Shown here: positions 10,330 through 64,000 of the stretch, piece by piece | Layout of the letters: every line of letters begins with the position of its first letter | How positions within the stretch are numbered: the first letter of the stretch is position 1 | Assembly: GCF_027942865.1 (NCBI RefSeq) | Contig: NC_134524.1 | Span: 3,012,536-3,076,535, forward strand | Direction of reading: 5' to 3' | Length of the DNA: 64,000 nt | Source: Odontesthes bonariensis | Lineage: Eukaryota > Chordata > Actinopteri > Atheriniformes > Atherinopsidae | Translations under genes and position numbers: made by a program | Notes under the pieces: generated by a model | What the model was told of the DNA's origin: nothing | Databases searched by the model: none | Seen by the model: only the letters and a program-made list of their open reading frames with translations

Positions 10330-12500
10330 AAATGTAGCCTAATTGATTTTTGAAGAGCCACTGACTAACCTCAGCCATGCATGCAGATAAAACATCTGCA
10401 GCTTGCTCTGGTGTCTTTGCGCCTGCATAAAAAAATACATCGTCCGCGTTAAGTTGGCAGCGGACACCTGGGAAAATCAAAGGCAGATCATTTATAAAGA
10501 GACTGAAAAGCAGTGGCCCTAGTATGGAGCCCTGCGGTATGCCCATTGAGATGTTTCTCTGAGAGGATTTGTCCTGGGCCACTCTCACACACTGCATGGC
10601 CTCAGGGGAGATCTTAAGTGTAGACATTTTGGCTAAAAGGAGGCTATGGCTGACTGTTTCGAATGCCTTTTTAAGATCAAGAAACACAGCTCCAACCACT
10701 TCACCCTTATCTAATGATTTTTTTATGTTTTCTATGAAGCAGCAGTTGGCGATCTCAGTTGAATACCCTGCTCTAAAGCCAAACTGCTGTGGGTGGAGGA
10801 GTTGATTCTCCTCCAGGTGCTCAGTTAGTTGAGCTGCCACCACTTTTTCAATCATTTTTGACGGTACAGGTAAAATTGCTATCGGCCTATAATTGTGCAT
10901 TGAGTCTTGCTCTCCTGATTTAAAAATTGGGACAATCGCAGCTTTTTTCCACCCTGAAGGAAATTTACATTTTCTAATAGACAAATTGGAAAGATGTGTC
11001 AAAGGTTTAACGAACAAGTTACCGTAACGTTTGAGAAAGCAGGAGTTTATATTATAAATATCATTTGCTTTGGAGTTAGACAGTTTTTGGATGGTCCTTG
11101 CTACCTCAGTCTCGTTCACTTCTTGTAGACAAAAGTATTCAGAAGAAGACTGCAATGATGTGACTCTCTCAAAATCTTTTGTGAGCTCTTCTATTGATTG
11201 TACAAAGTGCTTATTAAATTCATGAGCCATGATGGCGTTTTCATTAATAATTTTGCTGTTAATTCCTTAATTCTTGGTATTTTTATTAGTCAGATTATTT
11301 AAATGTTTCCAAAGGGAATTATTGTTGCCGATAGAATTGCCTATAAGGTTTGTATAATATGAAGCTTGTGCTTTTCTGAGCTCTTTCACTTCTTTATTTC
11401 TCAAGCTTTTAAAAGTAAAATTGTCTGTGCTGAGTTTGGATTGTAGTGATTTCTTCAGGGCTAGATCTCTCTTTTTCATGAGATTCCTTATATCATTATT
11501 TAGCCACGGGAGACTATTTTCCTTTTCCTTGCACTTTTTTTTTATTGGTAAATTTGTTAATTAATTGAGTGCTCGCTGCAGTGATTGAATTCCAACATTC
11601 ATCAACATCTTCCAAGGCTAAAATATGTTCCCAATTGAGATGTTTTAGTTCCCTCTCAAACTGTGGGATTTTGGATTTCGTGCCATTGTCATTGTTCTTT
11701 AATTTACCAAAGTCTCTTTTTAGTCAGCTTCCTAGCAGTCAAAGTCAAATTGTGGTCAGATAGTCCCGTTATTAAGTTATATGTTTTTATAATGCGCTCA
11801 GGTTTGTTTGTAAATGCCATGTCCATTAAGGTTTTTGACCGTCAGGTGATCCTGGTGGGCCCTTTAATCATTTGATGGTAATTAAGTTTTGTCATGATTG
11901 TTTTAAGTCTTTGTTTGCAAACTTTTTCAGTCCAGTTAATGTTAAAATCCCCGTACCATATTGTTTCTCTGTAAGTCTCAAGCTGCTTAATTGCACGAGT
12001 TAATTCATCATAAAAAGACACATTATGAGAAGGTGGGTTATAGAGAACAACAACGTTAAAATTCATGGATTGTGACAAAATTATATTTAAGGCTAGACAT
12101 TCAAGAGGAGTGTTAAGTTCAATTACTTTACAATTAAATTGATCTTTGATATAAATTAGAACTCCTCCTCCCTTCCCAGAGTCTCTGTCCTTTCTGAAGC
12201 ATTGATATCCTTTAATATCCATCATATCAGTAGGAATATTGCTATGAAGCCACGATTCAGTCAAACAGAGGTAATCCAAATGGGAATCCACGAGGAGAGC
12301 GGCAATCTTCGGATGTTTAGTTGCCCCCCAAGAATTCCCTTTGGTTTGCATTTAGGTTCCCATAGCACTCTGGCGTGATTCAGTTTGAAAGAATAGATAT
12401 TGCTTTTGTTTTTGCACTGCGTGATTGTCTTTGGAACGCATTTGAGCTGTGTTTTCTGCACCAATTTTAAAGACCCACTAAGGTCACAGTTCAAAATATG
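10330..12500 (-). mobile_element. L2/CR1-like LINE, endonuclease and reverse transcriptase
   Basis: Endonuclease (12351-11842) with YLCLTESWL, GKGGGVLIYIKD, YGDFNINW and GPTRIT. Reverse transcriptase (11230-10340) with QQFGFRAGYSTEIANCCF, FLDLKKAFETVSH and GIPQGSILGPLLFS. The catalytic motif reads NADD in place of YADD. There are frameshifts at about 12350, 11840 and 11250. It is cut at 10330 by the hAT element. Confidence 0.88.
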
Positions 12501-14904: not shown

Positions 14905-15001
14905 GGGCAAAGCAATTTATTTATACAGCACAATTCATACACAGGGCAACTCAAAGTGCTGCACAGCTACATAAAATCACAGGAAGGCAATAAAATGTTA
15001 G
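14905..15001 (-). mobile_element. Retroposon 3' fragment at the array edge
   Basis: AATTTATTTATACAGCACAA followed by CTCAAAGTGCTGCACAGCTA is a common fish LINE/SINE segment, here on the minus strand. The first array copies follow directly, so the unit may derive from the next part of this element. Confidence 0.55.
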
Positions 15002-17683: not shown

Positions 17684-17697
17684 AAACGCAGCCTCAC

Positions 17698-43176: not shown

Positions 43177-43400
43177 GGCGACGACAACGCTGTTTCCCTT
43201 CTGTTTCAGGTTAGAAAACACACATTGTTTATGAGCCGTCACCTCATCACATGCTCGTTCATTTCCACAGAAACACGCCTCAGCTCAACCTTTGAACTTG
43301 ACCTTCGTCCTCTCAGCCGGTTTTATCTCACGCAAACACACACAGTCTTCCTCTGTGGAATGTGCCGGCTTTTTCTCAGATTTCAGTCAGATCGGTGAGA

Positions 43401-43497
43401 ACTGGAGGGCCTGGAGGGCCTGGAGGTCCTGGAGGGCCTGGAGGTCCTGGAGGGCCTGGAGGTCCTGGTGGGCCTGGAGGTCCTGGTGGGCCTGAGC
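43401..43497. repeat. 18-bp minisatellite
   Basis: About five copies of GGCCTGGAGGTCCTGGAG just upstream of the gltpd2-like gene and next to the solo inverted-repeat arm. Confidence 0.85.
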
Positions 43498-43499
43498 AG

Positions 43500-43796
43500 G
43501 CAGTGATACGAAGGGAGAGAAAATAGGGCCAAGAGATTGTGAGGTCTGACTTTCTCCTGGAGAACCATTTTGTGATGCAAATGTATTACTCTGTTGAACG
43601 CATATTGTTTTGAGAAGCAAAACGCTTTATTTTTTAAACCCCAGCCAACTAGCCGGACTACCTTCATCAACACCAAAACGAGGCTGGAACTCTGCTCACA
43701 GGACGCAGCAGGGGGTAAGAAGATGTTCAGAAATGATGCTGCTGATATGGGATGTCATACAGCTTCATGTCAAAAGAGGCGAACTGTCCCTTTAAG
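43500..43796 (+). mobile_element. Single arm of the TTAA inverted-repeat family
   Basis: Nearly identical to 56300-56586: both contain CAACTAGCCGGACTACCTTC and end GCGAACTGTCCCTTTAA. The other arm is absent. It lies between fbxo41 and the gltpd2-like gene. Confidence 0.8.
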
Positions 43797-45050: not shown

Positions 45051-48000
45051 CTGCAGACCACACAGAACACGTTAAAAAACGCTTCGATTTAAACACGGTT
45101 TTATGTGGCTTTAACCTTCTGGGGTCCAGAGAATTATTTACGTTTATTTTTCACCTTAAAAACGGTTTATTTTGCACGTTTGGTGTCATTTTTCAACCTC
45201 GCACGTGTGACTTTACTGGTATTTTTTAAACACTTTGGGCCTAAAAATCACACAAAAAGCATCAAATCCGAGAAGGAAACATTTATTTACTGTGAAAACC
45301 GCAGCGATAAACATGAAAAACATGAAAAACATGAAAAACATGGCGTATTTCCATAAACCGGGTTTCATCTGGCCTGCCAACACGACTCTGCGTCTCACTG
45401 CTGCGACACTTTAAATCCTTCAGATGATGATCGACTCCAGAGGCTTAAATGGGACAAAATGTCACCTGGAAATGTCAGCTGATGCTCTTTAAGAACAAAC
45501 CCTGGAAAAATATCAGCGCTTCCTGTTGGTTCCTGTTTTTTCTCTCAGAGCAAAGAAAACGTGATTTATCCTGTGTAAACCAAACAGAGTGAAGTTATAA
45601 AGCCTCAGATCCAGAGGTGGGTAGTAACGAGTTACATTAACGTAAGTTTTTGAAAACATTATACTTCCAGGAGTAGTTTTAAATCTCTATACTTTTTACT
45701 TTTCCTTGAGTAGATGTGTGCAGCAGAAACTGTCCTCTTACTCCGCTACATTAGGCTACAATGAGCTGGTTACTTTTCTTCTTACCTCTTTGGTATTCTA
45801 CGCCTCATTTTAATGTTTTATCCTGACAGAGAGAGAGACTTCCACCAAAGGCTCTACCACCTGACTGTGTTCCACCAATCAGACGCAGCCGTGCAGTCTG
45901 GTCACGTGACCGTACTCGATCTCAGCGGCGGGACGGGTTAGCTTTAGCATTAGCAGTCGTAGCAAACAAAGAAAGAAACAGATGAAAAATGTCAGAACCA
46001 ACGGTGGGAAATGAAGACGCAGACGAGGCCTCATACTGAAAGCATGTTTACCTTACAAAGAGTGAGAAACAGCAGCTACATTATGTGTCTTCTGTGGCAA
46101 CCAAAACAAACGCACATTTCAGCAGAAACTCAACATCTAACTTGAGGAAACATGTAGCGCTAAGTTTCCTAAACTCGTTTTTCCCCCCATGGATAGGTGA
46201 ATGTTTGTTTTTTAGGTTACATATGGGTTACATATGTTTTAAACATTTCCTAAGTCTCTTTTATTTTTTAAATCTAAACTTATGACCCACCCTTTTTAGA
46301 CTGGCGTTCTCTGATTAGGACCACTATGCATCACTTCTATCCGCTTTTTTTTCAATTATCTTAATTTTATACAAATTTTATTCAATTCATTTTATTGCAC
46401 TTGTGGAAGGCTTTTAATGCCCTGCAGCACTTTTAGCACTTTTAACATTTCTGAATCATGTTTTATGTATTGTTTTTTTTTATTCTGTTGGAAAGCACTT
46501 TGAGTACCAGTTGGATATTGTAAAGGGCTATATAAATAACGTTTGATTGATTGATTGATTTTATTTTTTATTGAAGTTCTTGAATTTACCTGGATTATTT
46601 TAATTTAAGCTTTTTTTTGTAATTAATTCATTTTAATTCATTTTATCAATTGGATGAACTCTAATTTGCCTAAAGATGATTATTTAGTATGTTTGTCTGT
46701 CTGATTGAATGCTTGTGTTAACAAATAAATCAGACGTTACTCAACAGTTACTCAGGACTTGAGTAGTTTTTTCACCAAAAGTACTTTTTTACTCTTACTC
46801 AAGTAATTATTTGGATGACTACTTTTTACTTTTACTTGAGACATGTATTTCTGAAGTAACAGTACTTTTACTTGAGTACTTTTTTGGCTGCTCTACCCAC
46901 CTCTGGTCTAAACTAAGTGATTACATGAAAAACTGGGACATTAATGCTGGTTTCTATGCGTTGACTGATTCTGATTTTATAGAACTGTGACTGACAGAAG
47001 TGCTAAAAAAACTCTTGATCACCGCAGCTTGAAGCCATTTTAGGTTCAGTTCTTGTGTTTTAAGCTAACTTTGAGCTCACATCAGTGTTTTAAACTCATG
47101 AAGGATTTAAGTCTTTTTGTGCTGAGGTTGATTTTTCTTTAATGACACTTTTTCAGCTCGATGGCAGAAATACTTTTAAAACCTGGAAGTTTCGCCTAAA
47201 TCCTTTACTTATCAGCCTCTAAAGAAACTAGAAAGATTAAATAAATATAAAAAACTTCAGATTTTCAGGAGATTGGAGAAAATTCTTCTCCTCGTCCGTA
47301 TGAGCACAGGAACTTTGGACGTATCGTAGTTAAAAATAGTAAAAAAATATTAGAGCAGCACCTGTTTTTGTGTTACATGTTTTCGGATAGTTTGGTGTAA
47401 ACATATCAGTATTATTAGGTTTTTATACGAATTTGGTTTTTTTTGTGCTACTTTTGTCTTTTAACGTTATCATCTTATGGTAACGTTTGTTTCTATTTTT
47501 TAATTAGTTTTTAATGGTTTTGCTAACATCAGTGCTAATATTGGCTTTATGAAGCTAATGTTAGCTTTGATTCGTTACTGATGTTATTTTTTAAGCTAAG
47601 CATAGAAATCTTTTTATATTCACATTTTTATGAAGCTAATCTTATTTTATACAGGTGTTATTTCCAATGTTGGGGGCATTTTTTGTTTGTTAGCTTTTTT
47701 TAGGCTAATGTTTTCTTTTATGTCACTTTCTGATGTTAGTTAATAGTTTAGGTTGCGTGTGGTTAAAGTTAAACAGCACAGGTGACTCTTCTGCAGTAAT
47801 CCAGGTGTCTAATTTAACAGCCAATCACAGGGCAGTACAAACCAGGTGTGGCAGACGGTATAACACACCTTCAGCGTGCTGAGAATCTCTCTGAACAGGT
47901 GTTGAGCCTCCTGAGTATCCGGTTCTTCGAAGTAATCCTTCGCTGACACCTCAACCACAATGGACCTGATGTTCTCACACACACCTGCACAGGTGGAAGG

Positions 48001-51000
48001 AGGAGGAAGAATAATCACATCCAGGTGACAGAGGAGCATTTTTAAAGTCTGATTCAACACAAAGCAGGAGGCTGTGAGTCTCACTGTGGAAGTGCAGGAT
48101 GGCCTGACCGCTGACCGGCGTGTGCGTCAGGATCAGCGTCTGCAGGCTCTTCAGTCCAGCTTTGCACAGCTCCGTCGCCACCTGCAGGCTGAGGTCAGTA
48201 ATGCGCTCCAACTCCAGCACCTGCAGGTCAGCGCAGCTTCGCACTGAAAACACACAACCAGCATAATCAGGAACATTTTTAAAAACTTCCCTCTGTCACC
48301 ATTTCTACGCCAAACTTTATTAGATTTAAGAAAATTATATTAAAGTTTAATTATTTCTCAGTGTTCAGTTCTTTAATTTTTTCCCCACCGAACGGGGCAT
48401 TAGGAGAGGACACGTTTTAACTCTTTGCAGATTTATTTAAACTTTTTCAGTTGTCCACAAATAGAAGGTTATAAACCTGTGGAACAGAAAGGTTTATAGT
48501 GTAAAAGCAGTACTGATAGCCATGTACATAATATGTCATCAAATTTGAATAATGTAAATATACATATAAATATAAGTATACACACAATATGTCCATGCTC
48601 TACACTATTAGAGTTTAGTTTTATAAATAATATAATTAACGAGTGACTAAGCAAAGCACAAGTTTTTTACCACAGCAATGCAACAACTTCACACATAAAT
48701 ACTGCACATTAAACGCTGCATTTTCCACACACAAGCCACATTAATTAAACTGTGTCAATGTAGTTTTTTAAATTGCAACGTCAAGCACATCAAACCAGTA
48801 CCAACAAAGCAATTAACTACATTACCCAGCCTGCAGTGCGAGCGGGAAAGCAGCCAATCATGAGAAACTACACCGTAGAACAGGAAGTGGACTCGCGACA
48901 GTAAAAGTGCTACAACTCAAACATTGGAATATATTTACGGACATTACAAGCAATATTAAAACCCCAAACCACAAACAATGCCTGTCAGCGTGACTAAAGT
49001 AAGCCAACAAGCATATGAACCGTGCATACACAGCGGCAGCACCAACAAGCAAATTTAACCCGCAGCTCAATGAATGGAACCAGCAACTTACCGGTGGCGT
49101 ATCTCTCCTAACGAGACGACATCTCAAACTTAGTGATCGCTCCCGTTTATAGCCCGTGCTCATTCAACAGTGGATTCTGTCATGCTGCTTTGGGATTTAA
49201 TTGGTTCATGCTTCAGTATTTCAGGTGAGTGAACCTCCCACTTATTCACCTGCATTTAATTGCTATGACGCACCCGTGATGCAGTGAGCGCAACACTCAG
49301 GCACTAACTTTAGACCGATGTCATGACAGGAAACACTGGTAGAAAATGTCCAAATATGTCCTGTATCGCCAATTTATTCACAAATATAGATATTTTTACC
49401 ACATTGCTCACTTCTTCTGTCAATAGTTATAATTAATCAATTGGTTGTAATAAAAAAGGGCAGACAAATGTCGATAAATGTAAGTTTTCACTCACTGAGA
49501 GCGACCAATCCCTGAGTACTGCAGCCAGCCCCGCCCACACTGAGTGAGCGGAGGTGTGGCCAGCATCGACCAATCGTCTGCAAGCAGCGGTTACCGAATC
49601 GAGTCGGCTGTTGGCTGAAACAAGGAAAAAGGGAGATTAATGGTTAAAAGATTGACTTTTAATTAACCTAATTTATTTGGTATTTATAATACAATACATT
49701 AAAAACATAATGAGGTAAAATATCAATTCTTCAGTTAATACGTAAGATAAATGTAAAAGAAAAGCAAAATATATTTATTAATGAGACTCATTCAGATGGA
49801 ACAGATTCAGGTGCTTTCTGAGGATTATGGGGACGTCTAAAGAACAACATTCCCTCACAGCCTTTTTCTCTGGTTAGAATCGCACCATAAACAGGAAGTG
49901 ATGTAATAACTTTAAGAATAGTCAACATCTCATGATAATTCCTCCATTTCTCATTGGTTTAATGAACTGTCGTTCCATTCTTCTGTGTTTTGTCACAGGT
50001 TTTTATAAGGAAGTGTAAATCTGAGCCAGTCATCTCACATCTGGCTTCCCATGACGGTTCCCGTCTTGTTGGGAAAGCAGATACTCATAATTTCACACCT
50101 AAACGTCCCTACAAACTACAATTTTCCAAAGTTTCTGTGATGAAGACACAAACTAACAACAACAAGGTTCCTGTAGCATGAAAACATGGAAACCCCTGAA
50201 ACTGTCCTACATGAACTAAATTTAGTCTCGGATCCTTTGGTGTAAACACAGCATTAGTTCATGAATATTTAAAAGCCTTCGATCCTTAGAAAATCCTTTC
50301 ATTGTGGTCAATGAGGACCCCCCGGAGGACCCCCCCCCCTGGATCCTAATAAAGTTAAAAAGTATTCATGTTGGCTGCGAGGTGTGTCTGTACTGACCAG
50401 GGATGAGCTGGGGCCACCTGCAGGCTGCTGATGCTCCTGCAGCCTGCACCCAGGGCCCAGAGAACCTCATGGCCCAGAGGATCTGAAGAACTCCTGCAGG
50501 TGAACAGACAGACAGGTGAACAGACAGACAGGTGAACAGACAGACAGGTGAACAGACAGAAAGGTAAACAGACAGACAGGTGAACAGACAGACAGGTAAA
50601 CAGACAGACAGGTGAACAGACAGACAGGTGAACAGACAGAAAGGTAAACAGACAGACAGGTGAACAGACAGACAGGTGAACAGACAGACATGTGAACAGA
50701 CAGAAAGGTAAACAGACAGACAGGTAAACAGACAGACAGGTAAACAGACAGACAGGTGAACAGACAGACAGGTGAACAGACAGAAAGGTAAACAGACAGA
50801 AAGGTAAACAGACAGACAGGTGAACAGACAGACATGTGAACAGACAGAAAGGTAAACAGACAGACAGGTGAACAGACAGAAAGGTAAACAGACAGAAAGG
50901 TAAACAGACAGACAGGTGAACAGACAGAAAGGTAAACAGACAGAAAGGTAAACAGACAGACAGGTGAACAGACAGAAAGGTAAACAGACAGAAAGGTAAA

Positions 51001-54000
51001 CAGACAGACAGGTAAACAGACAGAAAGGTAAACAGACAGACAGACAGGTAAACAGACAGAAAGGTAAACAGACAGACAGGTGAACAGACAGAAAGGTAAA
51101 CAGACAGACAGACAGACAGGTAAACAGACAGAAAGGTAAACAGACAGAAAGGTAAACAGACAGACAGGTAAACAGACAGACAGGTAAACAGACAGAAAGG
51201 TAAACAGACAGACAGGTAAACAGACAGACAGAAAGGTAAACAGAGACAGGTGAACAGACAGACAGGTAAACAGACAGACAGGTAAACAGACAGACAGGTA
51301 AACAGACAGAAAGGTAAACAGACAGACAGGTGAACAGACAGACAGGTGAACAGACAGACAAGTAAACAGACAGACAGGTAAACAGACAGACAGAAAGACA
51401 GACAGACAGGTGAACAGACAGAAAGGTAAACAGACAGACAGACAGACAGGTAAACAGACAGAAAGGTAAACAGACAGAAAGGTAAACAGACAGACAGGTA
51501 AACAGACAGACAGGTAAACAGACAGAAAGGTAAACAGACAGACAGGTAAACAGACAGACAGAAAGGTAAACAGAGACAGGTGAACAGACAGACAGGTAAA
51601 CAGACAGACAGGTAAACAGACAGAAAGGTAAACAGACAGACAGACAGGTAAACAGACAGAAAGGTAAACAGACAGAAAGGTAAACAGACAGACAGGTGAA
51701 CAGACAGAAAGGTAAACAGACAGACAGACAGACAGGTAAACAGACAGAAAGGTAAACAGACAGAAAGGTAAACAGACAGACAGGTAAACAGACAGACAGG
51801 TAAACAGACAGACAGGTGAACAGACAGACAGGTAAACAGACAGACAGAAAGACAGACAGACAGGTGAACAGACAGACAGGTGGGGTCTCACCTGTATGTG
51901 AGTGCCTGCAGGTTCCTGCAGTAGCAGCTGGCCAACCACAGCGTCCTGTCGGTGAGGATGTGGGGGCACTGGGAGACGGACAGGTGGAGCAGACTGCCCC
52001 CTGCTGACCTCAGCAGCGCCTCCATCCCCGGCTCCACGCAGCCCCTGAGAGACACACAGGTCAACTACAACACCCACAATGCAACACCTGGGCAGCTCTC
52101 TGCTCCACTAACTTGTTAAGTTTAGTTTTTTTCTGCTCGTTTTGATGGTTTTCAGAAGTTTGCTCCGACCAATCACACGACATCTGGACTCTCTCTGGAA
52201 CTGGATGCTGTTGCCATGGCAGCGTGCACATTTTTATTTCAGGAAGATAAGGAAAGCTTTCCATTTCCTCAGAGCGAGCTTCACTGAGCGTTAATCCCCC
52301 AGAGCTGCATGTGTGTGTTTATTTTACTGCTTTTGTGGGGACACAAACAGTTCAAACAGTCTCACTGTGGGGACTTAGCCTCCTTATGGGGACACTAACA
52401 GTTCAAACAGTCTCGCTGTGGGGACTTAGCCTCCTTATGGGGACACAAATAGTTCAAACAGTCTCACTGTGGGGACTTATCCTCCTTATGGGGACACAAA
52501 CAGTTCAAACAGTCTCACTGTGGGGACTTAGCCTCCTTATGGGGACACAAATAGTTCAAACAGTCTCACTGTGGGGACTTATCCTCCTTATGGGGACACA
52601 AACAGTCTCGCTGTGGGGACTTATTCTCCTTATGGGGACACAAACAGTTCAAACAGTCTCACTGTGGGGACTTAGCCTCCTTATGGGGACACAAATAGTT
52701 CAAACAGTCTCACTGTGGGGACTTATCCTCCTTATGGGGACACAAACAGTCTCGCTGTGGGGACTTAGCCTCCTTATGGGGACACAAACAGTTCAAACAG
52801 TCTCGCTGTGGGGACTTATTCTCCTTATGGGGACACAAACAGTCTCGCTGTGGGGACTTAGCCTCCTTATGGGGACACAAACAGTTCAAACAGTCTCGCT
52901 GTGGGGACTTAGCCTCCTTATGGGGACACAAACAGTTCAAACAGTCTCACTGTGGGGACTTAGCCTCTCTATGGGGACACAAACAGTTCAAACAGTCTCA
53001 CTGTGGGGACTTAGCCTCCTTATGGGGACACAAAACCGGTCCCCCGATACTGGAAGGTAACAGTTTGAGGTCTAAAATCCCCTTTGTGAGGACTTTCTGG
53101 CAGCTCAGGGTTGGAATCCCTTTGAGGAACGTCAGCAACAGTCCTAATAAATATAGTAAGGTGAACATCTGTGTGTGTTACCGTGTGTTTTTGTGGTAAT
53201 CCTCCCGCGTCTCATTAGCACGACGGCTTCGAGGCTTCAGGCTGCTGAGAACCAAAGACTGAGTTTGGGTGCACCACTGGGACAGAGTGGTCAGGAACTA
53301 CACCCCAAGCACAGAAACACAGAAAACATTTAGAGAAAGAACAGTTCACACTCCATAACTCCAGGGGGAGCTTCTCCTCCTGAGAAGCATCTGACTAAAG
53401 CGTAACCATGATGTTTGTAGTAAAACCCGTTGGTACGTCTGATTCCAACACAACTCGGACAGTTAAAGGTTCAGACTCGTGTCCTTTTAGTGTTGGAACA
53501 GCCTCCACGTTCAGCTTTAGCCTCTCTGAACAGCCTTCCTGGTTCCTGTTCATAAAGCTGTCGTCTGTGAAGTGAAGCGAACGAATCTAAACCTTTTCCC
53601 GGCTGGGAAAACAAACTGATCCAAGTTTCTGAGTCCATATGGAAGCTGAAAAGGGTCAAATTACCCTCACAGCCAAAAACAAAGTAGCTGCTCTGGTTCA
53701 TATCAGTGGATCCCTGTTTCCACCTTTGTTTTTAAGATGCTTGCGGTGGATAACGTGCACGCTCTTGCTCTTACTGACATGCACAAACTAAATGGAAATC
53801 CTGCCTTTTACTCACTGTGACGATTGAAAAGTTGCAGAAGAAAGTCTGAAAGACGACTGGATAAAACAGCATTAAAAATACTAAAATATCTTTTTATTTT
53901 TTAGCTTTGGGGGACATTTAAGGTGATAATACATCATTTTAACACTCCGGATGAGCCAGAAAAGCATCAAAAAGCATGACGTGGGCCCTTAAACTGAGCA

Positions 54001-57000
54001 CATGTGGTTGTAATCATTGTAAATATACGGACGTAGATATAAATATTAGCATTTCTACTGGAATCAGCCTTTTATTTTCAGCCTTTTTGACAGTTTGTTC
54101 TGCTAAGAAAGTCACCTGTTACTGCTGCTACCTGCCTGCAGAGGGCAGCACTGCTGTTAAAACCTTTATTTTTACTGGTTTAAATGTTCTTTCTGTCTGT
54201 AGTACTTATAATTTGTAGTACTTATAAATACACCTGGTTATTTCTACAACTTCCTGTTAATAATTCTGAGCTGAGCTGAGTGACTGCTGAATGTTTGATG
54301 ATGTTTAACGAAGAAGATGGAAGCTCGTCTACCTCTGTCGACACTCTCGCGTTCTCCAGTCGGAGGCGTGTCCACACCGCAGGATGCCTGGCAACGAACC
54401 GCCAATCAGAGCACACCTCGGCCGCACGCAGCAGTGAGCGCACGTCCAAATATGGGAAGACGCAGAAAAGCCCCGCCCTCAATCTCAAGGTGTCTGCCCC
54501 CAGATGCCGGTCGCCATAGCGATGGGAGGGGGTGGAGCGGATGGAGGAGGGGGCATCTGAACGGGGCAGGAGAGAAAAAGGAGTAAAAGAGGCGGAGCTT
54601 CTGTTGTCATGGAAACAGGAAGTGTGACAGGCAGGTGAAGATAGAGAGAAGTGTGTCACCTGATCCAGGTGTGTGCGTCCTGGCAAAGAGGAGGCCTCTC
54701 CACATACCATCCTCTTCCTCCTCTTCCTCTTCCTCTTCCTCCTCCTCCTCCTCTTCCTCGGTGCTGTGGTGACGAAGGTTTCTTTTGCTCCAGGTTCTCC
54801 CCCATCCCTCCTCCCCGACCCTGCAGAAAGAGGCAAAGAAAGATCCTTTCATGGAGTAAATAATCGTCCCTTTAACCACGAAAGTATCAAAACGAGCAAC
54901 AAGATCAACTTAAAGAACAGCTTCGGTCAAACTTTCTCTCCAATCCACCAAGAAACCTTTTTGACAAAGTTATTCATATAATCTATTTACATAATTCCAA
55001 AATGGCGCCGCCATCTGTTATGATGTGTAACCACGGCAACAAGAAGGTTGCTAACCTGTTGGAGCAGCTAACTAAGCTTTATAAATCCCAATAAATGGCT
55101 GGAAAAAGACCCCAAAGTTGAAGAGGAGGCGTCTAGGATGCAGAGCAGGAACAAAATGGTGGGTAAAATGGACGAGCTTGGAGCCCTGATGAGGACACAG
55201 CAGGAATATCAGGCAGAGACCTGGCTGCAGGAACAGCTCTGACAGCTCTCTGCTCAGCTTTAAGACTATCCGGGCAGACAGAGACTGCAGACAGAGCGGT
55301 AACAGGAAAGGAGGAGGATCACAGAGCTGGTTAACAGCAGATGCTGTAATCCTGGACGTCTCTCTGCACCCCAGCACATCTTTAAAAATAATTAAATAGG
55401 TTCCCTTCAGGAATTAGTGAAACAGATTTAATTTAATTAACAGTTTGGTGCAGGAGGGTTTGGGTTTCGTCCACAACAAAAGTCAACGCGCTGCTAAACG
55501 AGTCAGAAGGTTCACAAACTTCTCTTCCCTCATCGTCAGATTACGTACCAGACCCTCTCCCTCCGCCCGTCTCCGCCTCTCTCACGCCAAAGCGAGGGCG
55601 GAGCATAGTGCGGTGGATGGAGGAAGGCAGCTCCGCCCTCACAGTCCCACCCTCCTGATCCCAGAGACATGGTCCTCATCCGTCCCGTCAGGCCGCTGGA
55701 AGAGACAAATGGAGAGGAGCCATCAGGGGGGAGGGGGAGGGTGGGGGGGGGTGTTCAGGTTCTGCTGGAAAAGGTGTGATGTGTTCAGGTACCCGTAGTG
55801 GCTGTACGGCTGCTCCCCCAGCCTGTAGGAGCCTGAGACGCTGTAACTCCTCTGCAGGCCATGTGGACAGAAAGAAGAAGCCATTAGACGTTCAAATCTC
55901 ACTCCATGACCCACTAATTCACTTAAAGGGATAGTTCGCCTCTTTTGACATGAAGCTGTATGACATCCCATATCAGCAACATCATTTATGAACATCTTCT
56001 TACCCCCTGCTGCGTCCTGTGAGCAGAGTTCCAGCCTCGTTTTGGTGTTGATGAAGGTAGTCCGGCTAGTTGGCTGGGGTTTAAAAAATAAAGCGTTTTG
56101 CTTCTCAAAACAATATGCGTTCAACAGAGTAATACATTTGCATCACAAAATCCTCCCTCCAGAAAAAGTCAGAGCTCACATCGCTTGGCCCTATTTTCTC
56201 TCTCCCTTTGTATCACTGCCTGCTGTGTAAACTTTGCAGACCGAGCAGCAAACAACGTAACAGGTGTGGCTGTCGCAAGGTGGCTGTACGCATCGATATG
56301 AAGGGAGGCAAAAATAGGGCCAAGCGATGTGAGGTCTGACTTTTTCTGGAGGGAGGATTTTGTGATGCAAATGTATTACTCTGTTGAACGCATATTGTTT
56401 TGAGAAGCAAAACGCTTTATTTTTTAAACCCCAGCCAACTAGCCGGACTACCTTCATCAACACCAAAACGAGGCTGGAACTCTGCTCACAGGACGCAGCA
56501 GGGGGTAAGAAGATGTTCAGAAATGATGTTGCTGATATGGGATGTCATACAGCTTCATGTCAAAAGAGGCGAACTGTCCCTTTAAATTGCTACGGTGTTC
56601 GTATCCCACCCTGTTCCCGATGCTTCCCTGCATCTTATCGGCGATGATGTCATCCGTGCTGCCGTCCAGACTGCGTCCACCTCGTCCGGGCTCAGGCGAG
56701 TACGGCTCAGACGCTGCGTACGGGTCGGCGTACGCGTACCTGTCGCCGAACAGGAAGTGGTTGTGGCTCAGCAGCAGCAGCTGCCTCTCAGCGCGGTCGG
56801 CTCGCTCCAGCAGCGTCTCTATGAACACCTGAAACAGGAAGCAGCGTCTCCATGAACGCCTGAAACAGGAAGCAGCGTCTCCATGAACACCTGAAACAGG
56901 AAGCAGCGTCTCTATGAACGCCTGAAACAGGAAGCAGCGTCTCCATGAACGCCTGAAACAGGAAGCAGCGTGTCCATGAACGCCTGAAACAGGAAGCAGC

Positions 57001-60000
57001 GTGTCCATGAACGCCTGAAACAGGAAGCAGCGTCTCTATGAACGCCTGAAACAGGAAGCAGCGTCTCCATGAACGCCTGAAACAGGAAGCAGCGTGTCCA
57101 TGAACGCCTGAAACAGGAAGCAGCGTGTCCATGAACGCCTGAAACAGGAAGCAGCGTGTCCATGAACGCCTGAAACAGGAAGCAGCGTGTCCATGAACGC
57201 CTGAAACAGGAAGCAGCGTCTCTATGAACGCCTGAAACAGGAAGCAGCGTCTCTATGAACGCCTGAAACAGGAAGCAGCGTCTCCATGAACGCCTGAAAC
57301 AGGAAGCAGCGTCTCTATGAACGCCTGAAACAGGAAGCAGCGTCTCCATGAACGCCTGAAACAGGAAGCAGCGTCTCCATGAACGCCTGAAACAGGAAGC
57401 AGCGTGTCCATGAACGCCTGAAACAGGAAGCAGCGTCTCCATGAACACCTGAAACAGGAAGCAGCGTCTCTATGAACGCCTGAAACAGGAAGCAGCGTCT
57501 CCATGAACGCCTGAAACAGGAAGCAGCGTCTCCATGAACGCCTGAAACAGGAAGCAGCGTCTCCATGAACGCCTGAAACAGGAAGCAGCGTGTCCATGAA
57601 CGCCTGAAACAGGAAGCAGCGTGTCCATGAACGCCTGAAACAGGAAGCAGCGTCTCTATGAACGCCTGAAACAGGAAGCAGCGTCTCTATGAACGCCTGA
57701 AACAGGAAGCAGCGTCTCCATGAATGCCTGAAACAGGAAGCAGCGTCTCTATGAACGCCTGAAACAGGAAGCAGCGTCTCCATGAACGCCTGAAACAGGA
57801 AGCAGCGTCTCCATGAACGCCTGAAACAGGAAGCAGCGTGTCCATGAACGCCTGAAACAGGAAGCGGCGTCTCTATGAACGCCTGAAACAGGAAGCAGCG
57901 TCTCCATGAACGCCTGAAACAGGAAGCAGCGTCTCTATGAACGCCTGAAACAGGAAGCAGCGTCTCTATGAACGCCTGAAACAGGAAGCAGCGTCTCCAT
58001 GAACGCCTGAAACAGGAAGCAGCGTCTCCACGAACGCCTGAAACAGGAAGCAGCGTCTCTATGAACACCTGAAACAGGAAGCAGCGTCTCCACGAACGCC
58101 TGAAACAGGAAGCAGCGTCTCTATGAACACCTGAAACAGGAAGCAGCGTCTCTATGAACGCCTGAAACAGGAAGCAGCGTCTCCACGAACGCCTGAAACA
58201 GGAAGCAGCGTCTCCACGAACGCCTGAAACAGGAAGCAGCGTCTCCATGAACGCCTGAAACAGGAAGCAGCGTCTCTATGAAAGCCTGAAACAGGAAGCA
58301 GCGTCTCCATGAACGCCTGAAACAGGAAGCAGCGTCTCCATGAACGCCTGAAACAGGAAGCAGCGTCTCTATGAACGCCTGAAACAGGAAGCAGCGTCTC
58401 CATGAACGCCTGAAACAGGAAGCAGCGTCTCCATGAACGTCTGAAACAGGAAGCAGCGTCTCCATGAACGCCTGAAACAGGAAGCAGCGTCTCCATGAAC
58501 GCCTGAAACAGGAAGCAGCGTCTCCATGAACGCCTGAAACAGGAAGCAGCGTCTCTATGAACGCCTGAAACAGGAAGCAGCGTCTCCATGAACGCCTGAA
58601 ACAGGAAGCAGCGTCTCTATGAAAGCCTGAAACAGGAAGCAGCGTCTCCATGAACGCCTGAAACAGGAAGCAGCGTCTCCATGAACGCCTGAAACAGGAA
58701 GCAGCGTCTCCATGAAAGCCTGAAACAGGAAGCAGCGTCTCCATGAACGCCTGAAACAGGAAGCAGCGTCTCCATGAACGTCTGAAACAGGAAGCAGCGT
58801 CTCCATGAACGCCTGAAACAGGAAGCAGCGTCTCCATGAACGCCTGAAACAGGAAGCAGCGCCTCCATGAACGTCTGAAACAGGAAGCAGCGTCTCCATG
58901 AACGCCTGAAACAGGAAGCAGCGTCTCCATGAACGCCTGAAACAGGAAGCAGCGTCTCTATGAACGCCTGAAACAGGAAGCAGCGTCTCTATGAACGTCT
59001 GAAACAGGAAGCAGCGTCTCCATGAACGCCTGAAACAGGAAGCAGCGTCTCTATGAATGCCTGAAACAGGAAGCAGCGTCTCCATGAACGCCTGAAACAG
59101 GAAGCAGCGTCTCTATGAACGCCTGAAACAGGAAGTAGCGTCTCCATGAACGCCTGAAACAGGAAGCAGCGTCTCCATGAACGCCTGAAACAGGAAGCAG
59201 CGTCTCCATGAACGCCTGAAACAGGAAGCAGCGTCTCCATGAACCCCTGAAACAGGAAGCAGCGTCTCCATGAACGCCTGAAACAGGAAGCAGCGTCTCC
59301 ATGAACGCCTGAAACAGGAAGCGGCGTCTCTATGAACGCCTGAAACAGGAAGCGGCGTCTCTATGAACGCCTGAAACAGGAAGCAGCGTCTCCACGAACG
59401 CCTGAAACAGGAAGCAGCGTCTCTATGAACGCCTGAAAAAGGAAGCAGCGTCTCTATGAACGCCTGAAACAGGAAGCAGCGTCTCCATGAACGCCTGAAA
59501 CAGGAAGCAGCGTCTCTATGAACGCCTGAAACAGGAAGCAGCGTCTCCACGAACGCCTGAAACAGGAAGCAGCGTCTCTATGAACGCCTGAAAAAGGAAG
59601 CAGCGTCTCTATGAACGCCTGAAACAGGAAGCAGCGTCTCTATGAACACCTGAAACAGGAAGCAGCGTCTCTATGAACGCCTGAAACAGGAAGCAGCGTC
59701 TCTATGAACGCCTGAAACAGGAAGCAGCGTCTCCATGAACGCCTGAAACAGGAAGCAGCGTCTCCATGAACGCCTGAAACAGGAAGCAGCGTCTCTATGA
59801 ACGCCTGAAACAGGAAGCAGCGTCTCCATGAACGCCTGAAACAGGAAGCAGCGTCTCCATGAACGCCTGAAACAGGAAGCAGCGTCTCCATGAACGCCTG
59901 AAACAGGAAGCAGCGTCTCCATGAACACCTGAAACAGGAAGCAGCGTCTCTATGAACGCCTGAAACAGGAAGCAGTGTCTCCATGAACGCCTGAAACAGG

Positions 60001-63000
60001 AAGCAGCGTCTCTATGAACGCCTGAAACAGGAAGCAGCGTCTCCATGAACGCCTGAAACAGGAAGCAGCGTCTCCATGAAAGCCTGAAACAGGAAGCAGC
60101 GTCTTCATGAACACCTGAAACAGGAAGCAGCGTCTCCATGAAAGCCTGAAACAGGAAGCAGCGTCTCCATGAACGCCTGAAACAGGAAGCAGCGTCTCCA
60201 TGAATGCCTGAAACAGGAAGCAGCGTCTCCATGAACGTCTGAAACAGGAAGCAGCGTCTCCATGAACGCTGAAACAGGAAGCAGCGTCTCCATGAACGCC
60301 TGAAACAGGAAGCAGCGTCTCCATGAACACCTGAAACAGGAAGCAGTGTCTCCATGAACGCCTGAAACAGGAAGCAGCGTCTCCATGAACGCCTGAAACA
60401 GGAAGCAGCGTCTCCATGAACGCCTGAAACAGGAAGCAGCGTCTCTATGAACACCTGAAACAGGAAGCAGCGTCTCTATGAACGCCTGAAACAGGAAGCA
60501 GCGTCTCCATGAACGCCTGAAACAGGAAGCAGCGTCTCCATGAAAGCCTGAAACAGGAAGCAGCGTCTTCATGAACACCTGAAACAGGAAGCAGCGTCTC
60601 CATGAAAGCCTGAAACAGGAAGCAGCGTCTCCATGAACGCCTGAAACAGGAAGCAGCGTCTCCATGAATGCCTGAAACAGGAAGCAGCGTCTCCATGAAC
60701 GTCTGAAACAGGAAGCAGCGTCTCCATGAACGCTGAAACAGGAAGCAGCGTCTCCATGAACGCCTGAAACAGGAAGCAGCGTCTCCATGAACACCTGAAA
60801 CAGGAAGCAGTGTCTCCATGAACGCCTGAAACAGGAAGCAGCCCCGTCCGTCCTCACATCCTTCAGTTTGATTTCACAGCTTAAATTTCTTTATCTTTTC
60901 TGGAATAATGACATTAACTGACCCTCACAGGTACGTTTGAGGAGAGCATCTGATTGGTTGAGTCATCGGCAGTTTTGATGTTTTCCCGCCTCTGTGAGGA
61001 CCTGATTATCTTAATTAGTGTAAAGTGCTGCAGTTTTAACTCTTTGCTTCCCGGTTTTTAGTGACTTTGTGGGAGTAAAACCTGACAGTAAGTTAGGAAT
61101 GTCACACTAAAAACCATAACGTTGTATTATAGGACAGCAGTAAGATCTGGGGTCACATGATCTTCTGTTGCTTTGAACTTTCCTAACTGAGGGATCTTTG
61201 AGCTCAAAGGAAAGAAGCTCCAGAGCGGAGGATGCACAGCTCCATCATTTATGAGAGAAAGGAGGCTTTAAGGCCTTAATATTTTCATCCATTTGCACTA
61301 ACTGTGATTCCTGTGGATCAATACGAGGAGTTTGAGCTTTCCTTCATTTTTTAACTTAATAATATTTCTAATTTGATAACTATAAGAGTACCTTTATGTA
61401 ACGTGATAAAACTGAATTAGACCGAGTATCTGAAGCACTTTTTATAGAATATTTACTGAACATTTCAGAGCTGCATCACAGCTGTTTCCTTTAAATCTCA
61501 CATTCATGTAAGCAGGTTCTCCTCCTAAAGTTAATCTCTACGTTACGTTAATTTAGAATCATTTAGAATCATTTAGCATCATGTAGCTTCATTTAGCATC
61601 ATTTAGTGTCATTTAGCATCATGTAGCTTCATTTAGCATCTCTTAGCGTCATTTAGCATCATGTAGCGTCATTTAGCTTCATTTAGCATCATTTAGCATC
61701 ATCAGCTTCATTTAGCGTCATTTAGCTTCATTTAGCGTCATTTAGCATCATGTAGCGTCATTTAGCATCATTTACCTTCGTTTAGCATCATTTAGCATCA
61801 TGTAGCTTAATTTAGCATCATGTAGCTTCATTTAGCATCATTTAGTATCATGTAGCTTCATTTAGCTTCATTTAGCATAATTTAGTATCATGTAGCTTCA
61901 TTTAGCATCATTTAGTGTCATTTAGCATCATGTAGCTTCATTTAACATCTCTTAGCGTCATTTAGCATCATGTAGTGTTATTTAGCTTCATTTAGCGTCA
62001 TTTAGCATCATTTACCTTCGTTTAGCATCATTTAGCATCATGTAGCTTCATTTAGCATCATTTAGTGTCATTTAGCATCATGTAGCTTCATTTAGCATCT
62101 CTTAGCGTCATTTAGCATCATGTAGCGTCATTTAGCTTCATTTTGCATCATTTAGCATCATCAGCTTCATTTAGCGTCATTTAGCTTCATTTAGCGTCAT
62201 TTAGCATCATGTAGCGTCATTTAGCATCATTTACCTTCGTTTAGCATCATTTAGCATCATGTAGCTTAATTTAGCATCATGTAGCTTCATTTAGCATCAT
62301 TTAGTATCATGTAGCTTCATTTAGCTTCATTTAGCATAATTTAGTATCATGTAGCTTCATTTAGCATCATTTAGTGTCATTTAGCATCATGTAGCTTCAT
62401 TTAACATCTCTTAGCGTCATTTAGCATCATGTAGCGTTATTTAGCTTCATTTAGCATCATTTAGCTTCATTTGGCATCATTTAGCTTCATGTAGCGTCAT
62501 TTAGCATTATGTAGTGTTATTTAGCATCATTTAGCTTCATGTAGCATCATTTAGCTACATGTAGCATCATTTAGCATTATGTGGTGTTATTTAGCATCAT
62601 GTAGCATTATTTAGCTACATGTAGCATAATTTAGCATTGTGTAGTGTTATTTAGCATCATTTAGCATCATTTAGCATCATCAGCTTCATGTAGCATCTTT
62701 TGGCATCATGTAGCATCATTTAGCATAATTTAGCATCATTGAGCATCATTTAGCATCATCAGCTTCATGTAGCATCTTTTAGCATCATGTAGCATCATTT
62801 AGCATCATTTAGCTTCATTTAGCATCATGTAGCATCATTTAGCATCATATAGCATCATTTAGCATCATTCAGGGTGATGTGGGGTTCACTTTGAGGACAC
62901 TGATGATCACAGAAACGCAGCCACCTGAAGTCTGGATTTGGCCTCGGCCTCTTTCTCCGCCGTCTCCCTCAGAAAAAGCTCGATGTCCGTCATCTCCCTG

Positions 63001-64000
63001 TAAGACAGGACGAACATGAGATCCAGAGACACGGTCGGGTTAAACACCAGGTGTAAACGTGCACAAAGAACAGAATGATTAAAGAAACAGATTTCCATGT
63101 GAACAGACGTGAGATAAAGTGGAACGCATGAAGCCGCGCTGACCTCAGCCGGACGCCTCGGGGCTGCTGAGCCTCGCTGTCGCTCTGTGTTTATCACAGC
63201 AAGACGTGTCCTCCTGCTTTACCCACTCAGGGTTTCATTTTATTCACGTGATGTGACAACAGAACTCTTTCTCTTTTAGCTCATATCCGCCTCACTGCAT
63301 AAATCAGGCTTCATCCACCCGGTTCCACTGGTTTCTGTACCTACTGGGACACAAAAGGAGGGAAACCTTCAGGATACTGACTGTTGGCGCTGACTCAGCT
63401 CCTTCTCTCTCCCCGTCAGGTCCTTCTTCAGTCGCTCCATCATCGCCACGGCAGCAGACACCTGCGGGGTGAATGAAACGCTGCTGAAACATCAGAAACC
63501 CGGTGAAACTGCGGTGTGGGCTCAGAGCTCCGCCCACCTCTCTGGACAGGTACGCCGCCCTCTGCTCCACCTCCTGCTTCTCGCTCTTCAGGCGTTCCCC
63601 GTCTCTTCTCTCCCACTCGAGCTCCGCCTCCCTCCTCTGTAGCTCCGCCTTCAGCCGCCCCACGCGGCGGTTCACCCGCTCCTCCACCTCCGCGAACGTC
63701 CGGGCGATCTTACGGTCCAGCCCCAGTCCCAGCCGCTCCTCCAGGCCGATCCCCACCGACAGGCCAAAGTCCAGCCCCAGGTGGAGCCCCAGCTCCCCCC
63801 GGGTCTCTGGGGGAAACGGGTCCAGGCGCCCAGGCAGGGCCACAGCGGTGGAGGGGTCCACCGGCCGGGCCCGGTCCGAGGAGCCGAACATGCCCCTGAG
63901 CAGCTGGGCCGAGGCAGACGATGAGGCCAGGTCCAGGCAGGCCAGCGGCAGGGGGAGGCTGCAGGGCTGCGTGCCCAGAGAAGGGCTCTGACTCTGGGAT
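44988..64000 (-). CDS. fbxo41: F-box only protein 41 (15 exons in window, 5' end outside)
   Basis: F-box proteins are substrate adaptors of SCF (SKP1-cullin-F-box) ubiquitin ligases; FBXO41 is known as a neuronal member with an N-terminal coiled coil, an F-box and a C-terminal leucine-rich part. Fifteen exons join with consistent phases: 64000-63538, 63461-63382, 62997-62925, 56828-56610, 55851-55793, 55695-55549, 54820-54708, 54556-54333, 53297-53182, 52044-51892, 50493-50398, 49614-49496, 48243-48085, 47984-47869 and 45050-44988, giving 733 codons against roughly 875 residues in the mammalian protein. Diagnostic pieces are the coiled coil ending in LLERADRAERQ, the F-box exon with AAEVCSDWRFVARHPAVW, and LRR-type exons with SQCPHILTDRTLWLASCYC. 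The reading frame is still open at the right edge, so the N-terminus lies beyond it. The middle exons 4-6 are the least certain. Introns carry four minisatellites, a hAT element and an inverted-repeat element. No in-frame stop was seen in the joined exons, so the gene looks functional. Confidence 0.93.
45611..46906 (+). mobile_element. Defective hAT-type element with BED-finger remnant
   Basis: Ends are inverted CCAGAGGTGGGTAG / CTACCCACCTCTGG, with ACTTGAGTACTTTT-type subterminal repeats at both sides. Inside (46100-46200) is a transposase BED-finger fragment split over two frames: CVFCGNQN in one and STSNLRKHV in the next. The rest of the transposase is missing. It sits in the last fbxo41 intron. 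A clean target duplication was not found. Confidence 0.75.
46385..46562 (+). mobile_element. LINE/SINE 3' tail nested in the hAT element
   Basis: Carries GAAAGCACTTTGAGTACC, then a GGGCTATATAAATAA stretch and a GATT microsatellite tail, the common 3' end of fish retroposons. It interrupts the hAT-type element. Confidence 0.55.
46920..47860. other. fbxo41 intron 14 remainder, nothing recognised
   Basis: AT-rich, GCTAAT-containing sequence without genes or clear elements. Confidence 0.5.
47869..47984 (-). CDS. fbxo41: fbxo41 exon 14
   Basis: Acceptor CCACCTGTGCAG, donor CTGAAG/GTGTGT, 116 nt, phase 1 to 0. Encodes CENIRSIVVEVSAKDYFEEP and QEAQHLFREILSTLK. Confidence 0.92.
48085..48243 (-). 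CDS. fbxo41: fbxo41 exon 13: leucine-rich repeats
   Basis: Acceptor GTGTTTTCAG, donor CCACA/GTGAGA, 159 nt, phase 1 to 1. Encodes RSCADLQVLELERITDLSLQ and SLQTLILTHTPVSGQAILHF, LRR-type strands and helices. Confidence 0.92.
48370..49330 (-). mobile_element. Possible LTR-like or unclassified transposon segment
   Basis: A block of unlike composition in fbxo41 intron 12. On the minus strand it carries GGGCTATAAACGGGAGCG, which looks like a TATA box, followed by a promoter-proximal stretch and ACCGGTAAGTTG, a donor-like site. This could be a solo LTR, but paired ends and a target duplication were not found. Confidence 0.25.
49496..49614 (-). CDS. fbxo41: fbxo41 exon 12: leucine-rich repeats
   Basis: Acceptor CCTTGTTTCAG, donor CTCA/GTGAGTG, 119 nt, phase 2 to 1. 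Encodes QQPTRFGNRCLQTIGRCWPH and LRSLSVGGAGCSTQGLVAL. Confidence 0.92.
49621..50340. other. fbxo41 intron 11, nothing recognised
   Basis: AT-rich; no gene or clear element. It contains a run of nine Cs near 50330. Confidence 0.5.
50398..50493 (-). CDS. fbxo41: fbxo41 exon 11: leucine-rich repeats
   Basis: Acceptor TTCACCTGCAG, donor CCCTG/GTCAGT, 96 nt, phase 2 to 2. Encodes SSSDPLGHEVLWALGAGCRS and ISSLQVAPAHP. Its pyrimidine tract is supplied by the last copies of the 16-bp array. Confidence 0.9.
50499..51885. repeat. 16-bp minisatellite filling fbxo41 intron 10
   Basis: Units CAGACAGACAGGTGAA and CAGACAGAAAGGTAAA with occasional 12- and 20-base versions. The marker CAGAGACAGG recurs at 51241 and 51571, so a 330-base block is duplicated. 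The intron is 51891-50494, so virtually all of it is array. Confidence 0.96.
51892..52044 (-). CDS. fbxo41: fbxo41 exon 10: leucine-rich repeats
   Basis: Acceptor GTCTCTCAG, donor TACAG/GTGAGA, 153 nt, phase 2 to 2. Encodes GCVEPGMEALLRSAGGSLLH then HILTDRTLWLASCYCRNLQA. The donor lies a few bases from the 16-bp array that fills the next intron. Confidence 0.92.
52325..53035. repeat. 51/42-bp minisatellite in fbxo41 intron 9
   Basis: Unit CAGTCTCACTGTGGGGACTT followed by a GCCTCCTTATGGGGACACAA stretch; a 9-base ACAGTTCAA insert is present or absent, giving 51- or 42-bp units. Because both lengths are multiples of three, the array stays open in one frame, but it lies inside an intron of the opposite-strand gene. 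Confidence 0.93.
53182..53297 (-). CDS. fbxo41: fbxo41 exon 9: after the F-box
   Basis: Acceptor GGGTGTAG, donor ACACG/GTAACA, 116 nt, phase 0 to 2. Encodes FLTTLSQWCTQTQSLVLSSL and KPRSRRANETREDYHKNTR, closely following the family pattern. Confidence 0.9.
53435..53695 (+). repeat. Dispersed repeat, second copy of 2615-2860
   Basis: Shares CGTCTGATTCCAACACAAC and CCTTTTAGTGTTGGAACAGC, and in the same order the AAACCTTTT and GGTCAA stretches, with the segment at 2615-2860. No coding potential; family unknown. Confidence 0.7.
54333..54556 (-). CDS. fbxo41: fbxo41 exon 8: F-box
   Basis: Acceptor CCCCGTTCAG, donor ACAGAG/GTAGAC, 224 nt, phase 1 to 0. Encodes the F-box with core LFCVFPYLDVRSLLRAAEVC then DWRFVARHPAVWTRLRLENA. 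The Leu-rich start, the central Leu-Leu and the Trp pair are the expected SKP1-binding features. Confidence 0.92.
54708..54820 (-). CDS. fbxo41: fbxo41 exon 7: basic stretch and poly-Glu tract
   Basis: Acceptor CCTCTTTCTGCAG, donor GATG/GTATGT, 113 nt, phase 2 to 1. Encodes TWSKRNLRHHST followed by 16 glutamates from a GAG/GAA microsatellite (54712-54759). The RxxRHSTE context agrees with the mammalian protein, where the acidic run is broken and shorter. Confidence 0.85.
54821..55548. other. fbxo41 intron 6, nothing recognised
   Basis: No gene, array or clear mobile element seen on either strand. Confidence 0.5.
55549..55695 (-). CDS. fbxo41: fbxo41 exon 6: linker
   Basis: Acceptor TTTGTCTCTTCCAG, donor TCTG/GTACGT, 147 nt, phase 2 to 2. 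Encodes a Gly/Arg/Pro-rich linker including RMRTMSLGSGGWDCEGG. This linker varies in the family, so the call rests on splice sites, phase and an open frame. Confidence 0.6.
55793..55851 (-). CDS. fbxo41: fbxo41 exon 5: Tyr/Ser-rich linker
   Basis: Acceptor GGCCTGCAG, donor CTACGG/GTACCT, 59 nt, phase 0 to 2. Encodes RSYSVSGSYRLGEQPYSHYG. The donor is chosen because the frame reaches a TGA at 55723 if it is not spliced. The resulting 97-bp intron ends in a strong pyrimidine tract. Confidence 0.6.
55924..56588. mobile_element. TTAA-flanked element with about 290-bp inverted repeats
   Basis: The left arm (from AAGGGATAGTTCGCCTC) and right arm (ending GGCGAACTGTCCCTT) are reverse complements over nearly 300 bases, around a 75-base unique centre. 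Both ends are flanked by TTAA, the target typical of piggyBac-type elements. It has no coding capacity. The right end lies about 20 bases from the 3' border of fbxo41 exon 4. A single arm of the same family is at 43500-43796. Confidence 0.8.
56610..56828 (-). CDS. fbxo41: fbxo41 exon 4: end of coiled coil and linker
   Basis: Acceptor CCTGTTTCAG, first codons VFIETLLERADRAERQ, then a Tyr/Ser/Pro/Gly-rich linker. The 3' border is taken at AACAGG/GTGGGA, which keeps phase 0 into exon 5; a donor 13 bases further on (ACC/GTAGCA) cannot be excluded. The first 20 bases of this exon plus 11 bases of its acceptor are the unit of the 31-bp array that fills the upstream intron. Confidence 0.82.
56811..60842. 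repeat. 31-bp minisatellite, about 130 copies, made of the fbxo41 exon 4 splice junction
   Basis: On the minus strand each unit reads TCCTGTTTCAG followed by GCGTTCATGGAGACGCTGCT. This is the 11-base 3' end of the intron plus the first 20 bases of fbxo41 exon 4, with few substitutions. The last copy runs straight into the true exon at 56828. Near the distal end a 464-bp block (15 units, one with a 1-base deletion) is present twice, marked by GTCTTCATGA at 60101 and 60565, so part of the array grew by block duplication. Units differ mainly at C/T, T/C and G/A positions. Confidence 0.97.
60843..61545. other. Unique intronic sequence of fbxo41
   Basis: About 700 bases between the two arrays. 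No open frame, repeat or recognisable element was seen on either strand. Confidence 0.6.
61546..62872. repeat. 10-bp minisatellite ATTTAGCATC with 459-bp higher-order duplication
   Basis: About 130 degenerate copies of ATTTAGCATC (variants TGTAGCTTC, TTTAGCGTC). The variant ATTTAGTGTC recurs at 61601 and 62060 and, separately, at 61910 and 62369, both 459 bases apart, so a long block was duplicated in tandem. It lies in the same fbxo41 intron as the 31-bp array. Confidence 0.95.
62925..62997 (-). CDS. fbxo41: fbxo41 exon 3: coiled coil
   Basis: Acceptor CTTACAG, donor CTTCAG/GTGGCT, 73 nt, phase 2 to 0. Encodes MTDIELFLRETAEKEAEAKS, which corresponds to the conserved FLKETA-type segment of FBXO41. 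Confidence 0.88.
63382..63461 (-). CDS. fbxo41: fbxo41 exon 2: coiled coil
   Basis: Acceptor CCCCGCAG, donor CAACA/GTCAGT, 80 nt, phase 0 to 2. Encodes VSAAVAMMERLKKDLTGREK and the start of the next heptads, which continue the coiled coil. Confidence 0.85.
63538..64000 (-). CDS. fbxo41: fbxo41 exon 1 of window (partial): Pro/Leu-rich then coiled coil
   Basis: Open from the window edge to a GTGGGC donor after ...YLSRE (phase 0). The first half is Ser/Leu/Gly-rich; the second is heptad-like (VEERVNRRVGRLKAELQRRE), matching the family's coiled coil. An internal Met at 63891 is unlikely to be the start, because the frame continues upstream without a stop. Confidence 0.85.

Follow-up and report, generated by a model that had tools for sequence, protein, structure and literature searches.

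A minisatellite in the genome of the fish Odontesthes bonariensis has taken up the 3' splice site of a coding exon and repeats it about 130 times. It lies in a 64,000-nucleotide stretch of DNA (here called the window; contig C24:3012536-3076535 of an assembly of 945 Mb in 187 contigs), where its 31-bp units cover the junction of intron 3 and exon 4 of a minus-strand gene. We take this gene to be fbxo41 from the general character of FBXO41 and from a Pfam match to the F-box-like domain (PF12937, 7.4e-09) in an exon downstream of the array. In our judgement the array is probably a mirage-type minisatellite that would have arisen by slippage and would persist as an accident which splicing tolerates, with the last copy in use and no part in tuning splicing.

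Tandem Repeats Finder (TRF) delimits a period-31 array of 130.2 copies with 96% matches at 56809-60842, and each unit, read on the minus strand, joins the last 11 nt of the intron, TCCTGTTTCAG, to the 20 nt with which exon 4 opens. Both the composition of the unit and the figure of about 130 tandem copies of the exon 4 3' splice site had been proposed in a first-pass annotation of this DNA, and both hold. Cutting the minus strand at TTTCAG recovers the motif in all 130 copies, that is, the last site and 129 upstream of it, with the base directly after TTTCAG at 60825 for the first site and 56828 for the last (plus-strand coordinates); the 129 units between acceptors comprise 127 of 31 nt and two of 30 nt. 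The same annotation had the array stop exactly at the exon edge, which needs correction: its final 20 nt belong to exon 4, and its last copy is the acceptor that we regard as authentic. The array spans an exon-intron boundary and carries splice signals in all 130 copies, two features of mirage minisatellites.

The units form 20 variants, not counting the exon's own copy, and 48 of the 127 full-length units equal the consensus. Two bases of the exon copy depart from it, a pair that recurs in four inner units, and a block of 12 units reappears identically 15 units further along, an exact recurrence that suggests ordinary minisatellite turnover. As acceptors the copies are nearly equal, as had also been claimed: the 20 nt upstream are the same at 109 of the 130 sites, one base off at 20 and two bases off at one. 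The consensus unit further contains UUCAU, a match to yTnAy whose A, at unit position 7, lies at -25 from the next exon start; such matches number 123 over the 4014-nt array and are absent from the six units with G in column 7. The sites do not belong to other known classes of repeated or tandem splice sites. A recursive splice site is an acceptor directly joined to a good donor; here AG/GTG occurs at 12 of 130 sites, always followed by TTC, and none reads GTRAGT. NAGNAG acceptors are alternative AGs three nt apart, and the spacing here is 31 or 30 nt. Searches for RNA families gave no match at the gathering score in 47500-64000, and an exact 36-base unit had no match in viral contigs.

From this structure we infer how the array may have arisen and how it is probably spliced. 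GCTGCT stands at both edges of the array; in a single-copy ancestor the two hexamers would have been spaced by 31 bp, which is the arrangement needed for slippage or unequal exchange, and the array would have been born in one duplication of a 31-bp source across the intron 3-exon 4 boundary, primed by this flanking 6-bp repeat. Expansion to 130 copies would have followed through ordinary minisatellite turnover in a repeat-dense region of the chromosome. Most copies would make complete short acceptors, with a pyrimidine tract, CAG and, in 123 of 129 units, a branch-point-like UUCAU. With so many acceptors sharing the same upstream sequence, site strength can hardly select a winner, and since neither acceptor strength nor the branch point clearly sets the last site apart, what is left is where a site stands with respect to the exon 4 donor: the spliceosome most likely takes the last copy through exon definition, as this gives the shortest exon (219 nt) before that donor (AGG/GTGGGA, picked by eye). 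RNA structure as the chooser of the acceptor was rejected, as two 111-nt folds of the array gave z values of 0.12 and 1.09, no excess stability. Leaky use of upstream copies would yield transcripts cleared mostly by nonsense-mediated decay, and the array may be tolerated as intron because its leaky products mostly meet that fate. The locus thus offers a natural competition test, with 130 near-identical acceptors before one exon that differ almost only in their distance from the donor, and in which long cDNA reads could measure the advantage that exon definition gives to the closest of them.

The first-pass annotation knew of no described precedent, but this kind of repeat, though rare, has been described. 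In the passages of the published accounts on which we draw, mirage minisatellites are reported from amphioxus in Adh3 and the globins BflGb6 and BflGb9 (PMC3087553) and from the lancelet in troponin C and PGBD5 (PMC3902484), and they are reported to leave splicing undisturbed in amphioxus (PMC3087553, PMC3902484). Units of the Adh3 mirage measure 10-72 bp, compared with 31 bp here, and the BflGb6 mirage is acceptor-side, like the fish array (PMC3087553); BflGb6 haplotypes carry 6 and 3 copies, whereas the fish array carries 130. Both splicing and length variation are reported for the amphioxus mirages, whereas the present array is known from the sequence of one assembly. In human duplicated genes, minisatellites at exon-intron boundaries alter gene structure; the excerpted survey gives units averaging 30 bp and 27 intron modifications upon manual inspection, and, in contrast to the fish array, its cases average about four repeats, lie in recent primate paralogues and have RNA-supported altered transcripts (PMC2812944). 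The minisatellite of human IFI6 (6-16) likewise carries splice sites in its units, two downstream units being used (PMC4526556, in part). That array is donor-side, whereas here the duplicated boundary is the acceptor, and 2083 bp separate the array from the exon 3 donor. The passages available from a sea bream paper describe minisatellites within introns and one allele for which an additional acceptor is predicted, with no boundary-spanning array among them. No bony-fish mirage was recognised in the literature searched, a search outside which most subscription papers fall. Our results would accordingly carry the mirages known from amphioxus over to a fish, with an extreme number of copies; besides that number, what is new is the presence of two more acceptor-spanning arrays, the crowding of minisatellites near contig starts and the lack of intron 3 in a second gene copy on contig C4.

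The further acceptor arrays lie close to the start of contig C27, which holds the only other place related to the 31-bp array among the scored candidates (69-74% identity, same 31-bp period). That match falls, by eye, in an intron of a fes-type gene, and beyond the period and the motif CTGCTTCCTGTTNCAG the two arrays have little in common; the surrounding 30 kb yielded no exon of fbxo41. With its exons joined by hand, the C27 gene matches the Fes/Fps chain 4dyl over 280 residues (E 1.1e-65). One of its exons begins in an array of 51-bp units with seven intact acceptors, six of them upstream, and one more upstream site in which AG has become GG; all six intact upstream acceptors are open and in frame, and each would add 17 residues. 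At another exon, a 67-bp array places 22 sites upstream of the presumed real acceptor, which is fixed by a TAG that immediately precedes the exon in the same frame; seven of the 22 are in phase and none is open. One genome thus holds three acceptor arrays, of 31 bp, of 51 bp with upstream sites in frame and of 67 bp with upstream sites closed, whereas no donor array was seen by eye in fbxo41 or the fes-type gene. A separate 37-bp array of 162 copies (L009:2369-8344 on C27) makes up, by eye, nearly the whole fes intron between an SH2-like and a kinase-like exon.

These overlaps have to be read against the local load of minisatellites, counted at a period of at least 7 and a length of at least 90 bp. 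They occupy 19680 of 64000 bp (30.7%) in the window, which starts 3 Mb from a contig start and is taken as near a chromosome end, and 18874 of 30000 bp on C27, a region chosen for its array match, compared with 161 of 150000 bp in 15 interior 10-kb samples. Near four contig starts (eight 3-kb samples, taken 0.5 and 3 Mb into the contigs) they occupy 2979 of 24000 bp, all in three of the eight samples. From 19 array ends and about 43 splice sites (21 listed, 22 estimated for fes) in 34.4 kb, about 0.83 array ends would be expected on splice sites in the two genes, where three are seen (P about 0.05). That 130 copies should stand in tandem cannot be chance; that some repeat covers some splice site in this region is not improbable, because nearly a third of the window is minisatellite and close to one such overlap is expected. 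As the overlaps are roughly what this heavy load predicts, they do not establish that acceptors are specially favoured, and the broader proposition that minisatellites near the chromosome ends of this genome repeatedly capture 3' splice sites, reshape introns there and may add alternative exon sequence is one we put forward tentatively, as rather unlikely.

The last array copy is very likely the authentic acceptor because the second fbxo41-like gene of this genome, on C4 (L036, C4:12452501-12453500), reads straight over the junction. Exons 3 and 4 are fused there and intron 3 is absent; the frame continues uninterrupted as VRLQ-QFIEELLDRADRAE, with zero inserted residues (the longer reading is EVAQIDQFLQETAAREANAKVRLQ-QFIEELLDRADRAEKQLQ), where in the C24 gene the exon 3 peptide ends in SRLQ and the exon 4 peptide starts with V-FIETLLERADRAERQ. 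The presence of intron 3 in one copy and its absence from the other are compatible with gain or loss.

Several points weigh against a merely tolerated accident. Since C4 lacks the intron, the array may be tied to a gain of intron 3. Changes are also unevenly spread over the unit: of the distinct ones, 13 fall in the 20 columns that derive from the exon and one in the 11 that derive from the intron (P 0.019, or 0.057 once CpG transitions are left out, in a post hoc comparison chosen after seeing the data), a scarcity that could hint, though we put little weight on it, that the acceptor signals are kept. Finally, the 10 kb adjoining the window (L012) holds only 306 of 10000 bp of minisatellite, so that density is patchy.

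The first of these points leads to the alternative that fares best, although we think it unlikely: intron 3 itself would have come from a tandem duplication at a coding TTCAG/GTG, leaving the array as a remnant. TTCAG/GTG does stand at both splice sites of intron 3, the fused exons of the C4 copy agree with such a gain, and precedents exist in the mirage-derived introns proposed for amphioxus globins (PMC3087553, in part) and in the novel introns at boundary repeats reported in human genes (PMC2812944, in part). Yet CAG/GTG is near the consensus at both sites in any case, intron 3 and exon 4 are by eye unlike at their starts, neither array accounts for about 760 bp of the intron, and loss of the intron from the C4 copy would explain the fusion equally well.

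Somewhat less probable still is a splicing rheostat, in which upstream copies compete weakly and the length of the array sets the unproductive share of transcripts, hence the amount of fbxo41 protein. What each copy would do to the message bears on this directly. Use of the last acceptor gives an exon 4 of 219 nt, and the next ones 250, 281, 312 and so on up to 4216 nt. The first-pass annotation expected every third copy to stay in frame; the phase is right, apart from a change at the far end of the array caused by the two 30-nt units, but 40 of the 42 in-phase upstream sites (of 129) run into a stop and only copies 3 and 6 are open. All 87 out-of-phase sites also meet a stop, so that 127 of the 129 upstream sites lead to a premature stop, in every case over 55 nt upstream of the exon 4/5 junction. 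Unproductive products of this kind speak for a rheostat, as do the TTTCAG kept in all 130 acceptors and, weakly and post hoc, the fewer changes in the acceptor part. However, shuffling the order of the units gave 0-3 open decoys in 1614 of 2000 trials, which makes the observed two ordinary, and the frame pattern of the decoys carries no sign of selection; amphioxus mirages are, in the passages at hand, reported without disturbance of splicing (PMC3087553, PMC3902484); and the fes arrays are unlike in phase and outcome, hence no common design is seen. As far as coding consequence goes, the annotation's suggestions that the array tunes splicing fidelity or varies the coiled coil therefore find no footing in the premature stops or in the two open copies, whose number lies within the shuffled range.

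That the array was misassembled or its copy number inflated strikes us as very unlikely. The exact repetition of a 12-unit block 15 units away would fit such an error, but the 20 variants stand in a structured order, the array edges match a 6-bp direct repeat, the contigs are 33-48 Mb long and acceptor-spanning arrays occur at two other exons. Least credible of all is a coding variable-number tandem repeat, in which the third and sixth upstream copies, both indeed open and in frame, would give isoforms with 31 or 62 residues added to the predicted coiled-coil part: the 31-residue peptide, which includes one Pro, one Trp, two Cys and four Phe, does not resemble a coil and amounts to the unit translated through its three frames, all copies from the ninth upstream onward are closed, and the C4 copy has no counterpart.

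Table 1. Features of the fbxo41 region (window coordinates) and acceptor arrays of the fes-type gene (C27).
Feature	Position	Strand	Remarks
31-bp minisatellite	56809..60842	-	x130.2; per unit 11 nt intron end + first 20 nt exon 4
GCTGCT, intron-side array edge	60837..60842	-	array flank; presumed slippage endpoint
GCTGCT in exon 4, exon-side array edge	56809..56814	-	presumed slippage endpoint
AG of 3' splice site taken as authentic	56829..56830	-	last array copy
fbxo41 exon 3	62925..62997	-	73 nt; end ..CTTCAG, donor CTTCAG/GTGGCT
fbxo41 intron 3	56829..62924	-	6096 bp; ~87% 31-bp + 10-bp arrays
10-bp minisatellite in intron 3	61551..62869	-	x132; 56 bp between its near end and the last exon 3 base
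fbxo41 exon 4	56610..56828	-	219 nt; both ends in phase 0; array covers its first 20 nt
Extension via 3rd upstream acceptor	56829..56921	-	+93 nt; in frame, open, 31 aa
Extension via 6th upstream acceptor	56829..57014	-	+186 nt; in frame, open, 62 aa
Reading frame with F-box-like domain	54225..54848	-	PF12937, 7.4e-09
16-bp array in fbxo41 intron 9	50497..51881	-	no AG inside array
51-bp array, fes-type gene	L010:6923-7353 (C27)		per unit 22 nt intron end + 29 nt exon
67-bp array, fes-type gene	L010:8204-9761 (C27)		23 CTCTAG acceptors (22 upstream + presumed real one)

Elsewhere in fbxo41, intron 9 (50494-51891, 1398 bp) consists entirely of a 16-bp array save for 10 nt at its 5' end and 3 nt at its 3' end. 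The unit on the minus strand is TCTGTCTGTTTACCTG. The intron is 77% pyrimidine and has two AGs only, those of its donor and its acceptor; an array free of AG is the opposite of the 31-bp array. The reading frame of exon 5 shifts within a C-rich stretch at 55720-55760, possibly through a homopolymer error, a real frameshift or an unrecognised small intron. Intron 4 contains an inverted repeat (55923-56197 and 56311-56585, 275-nt arms, 99% complementary, 113-nt gap) that looks like a short inverted-repeat transposon, and a near-identical translated stretch occurs at 43383-43754.

Further out in the window, a 34-bp array of 79.5 copies (14995-17684) ends, by eye, about 14-25 bp from a likely minus-strand donor, AAG/GTGAGG, whose exon matches THAP weakly. 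The frames at 10277-11266, 25509-26603 and 3387-4796 comprise two with reverse-transcriptase matches (PF00078) and one with 15 C2H2 zinc-finger stretches.

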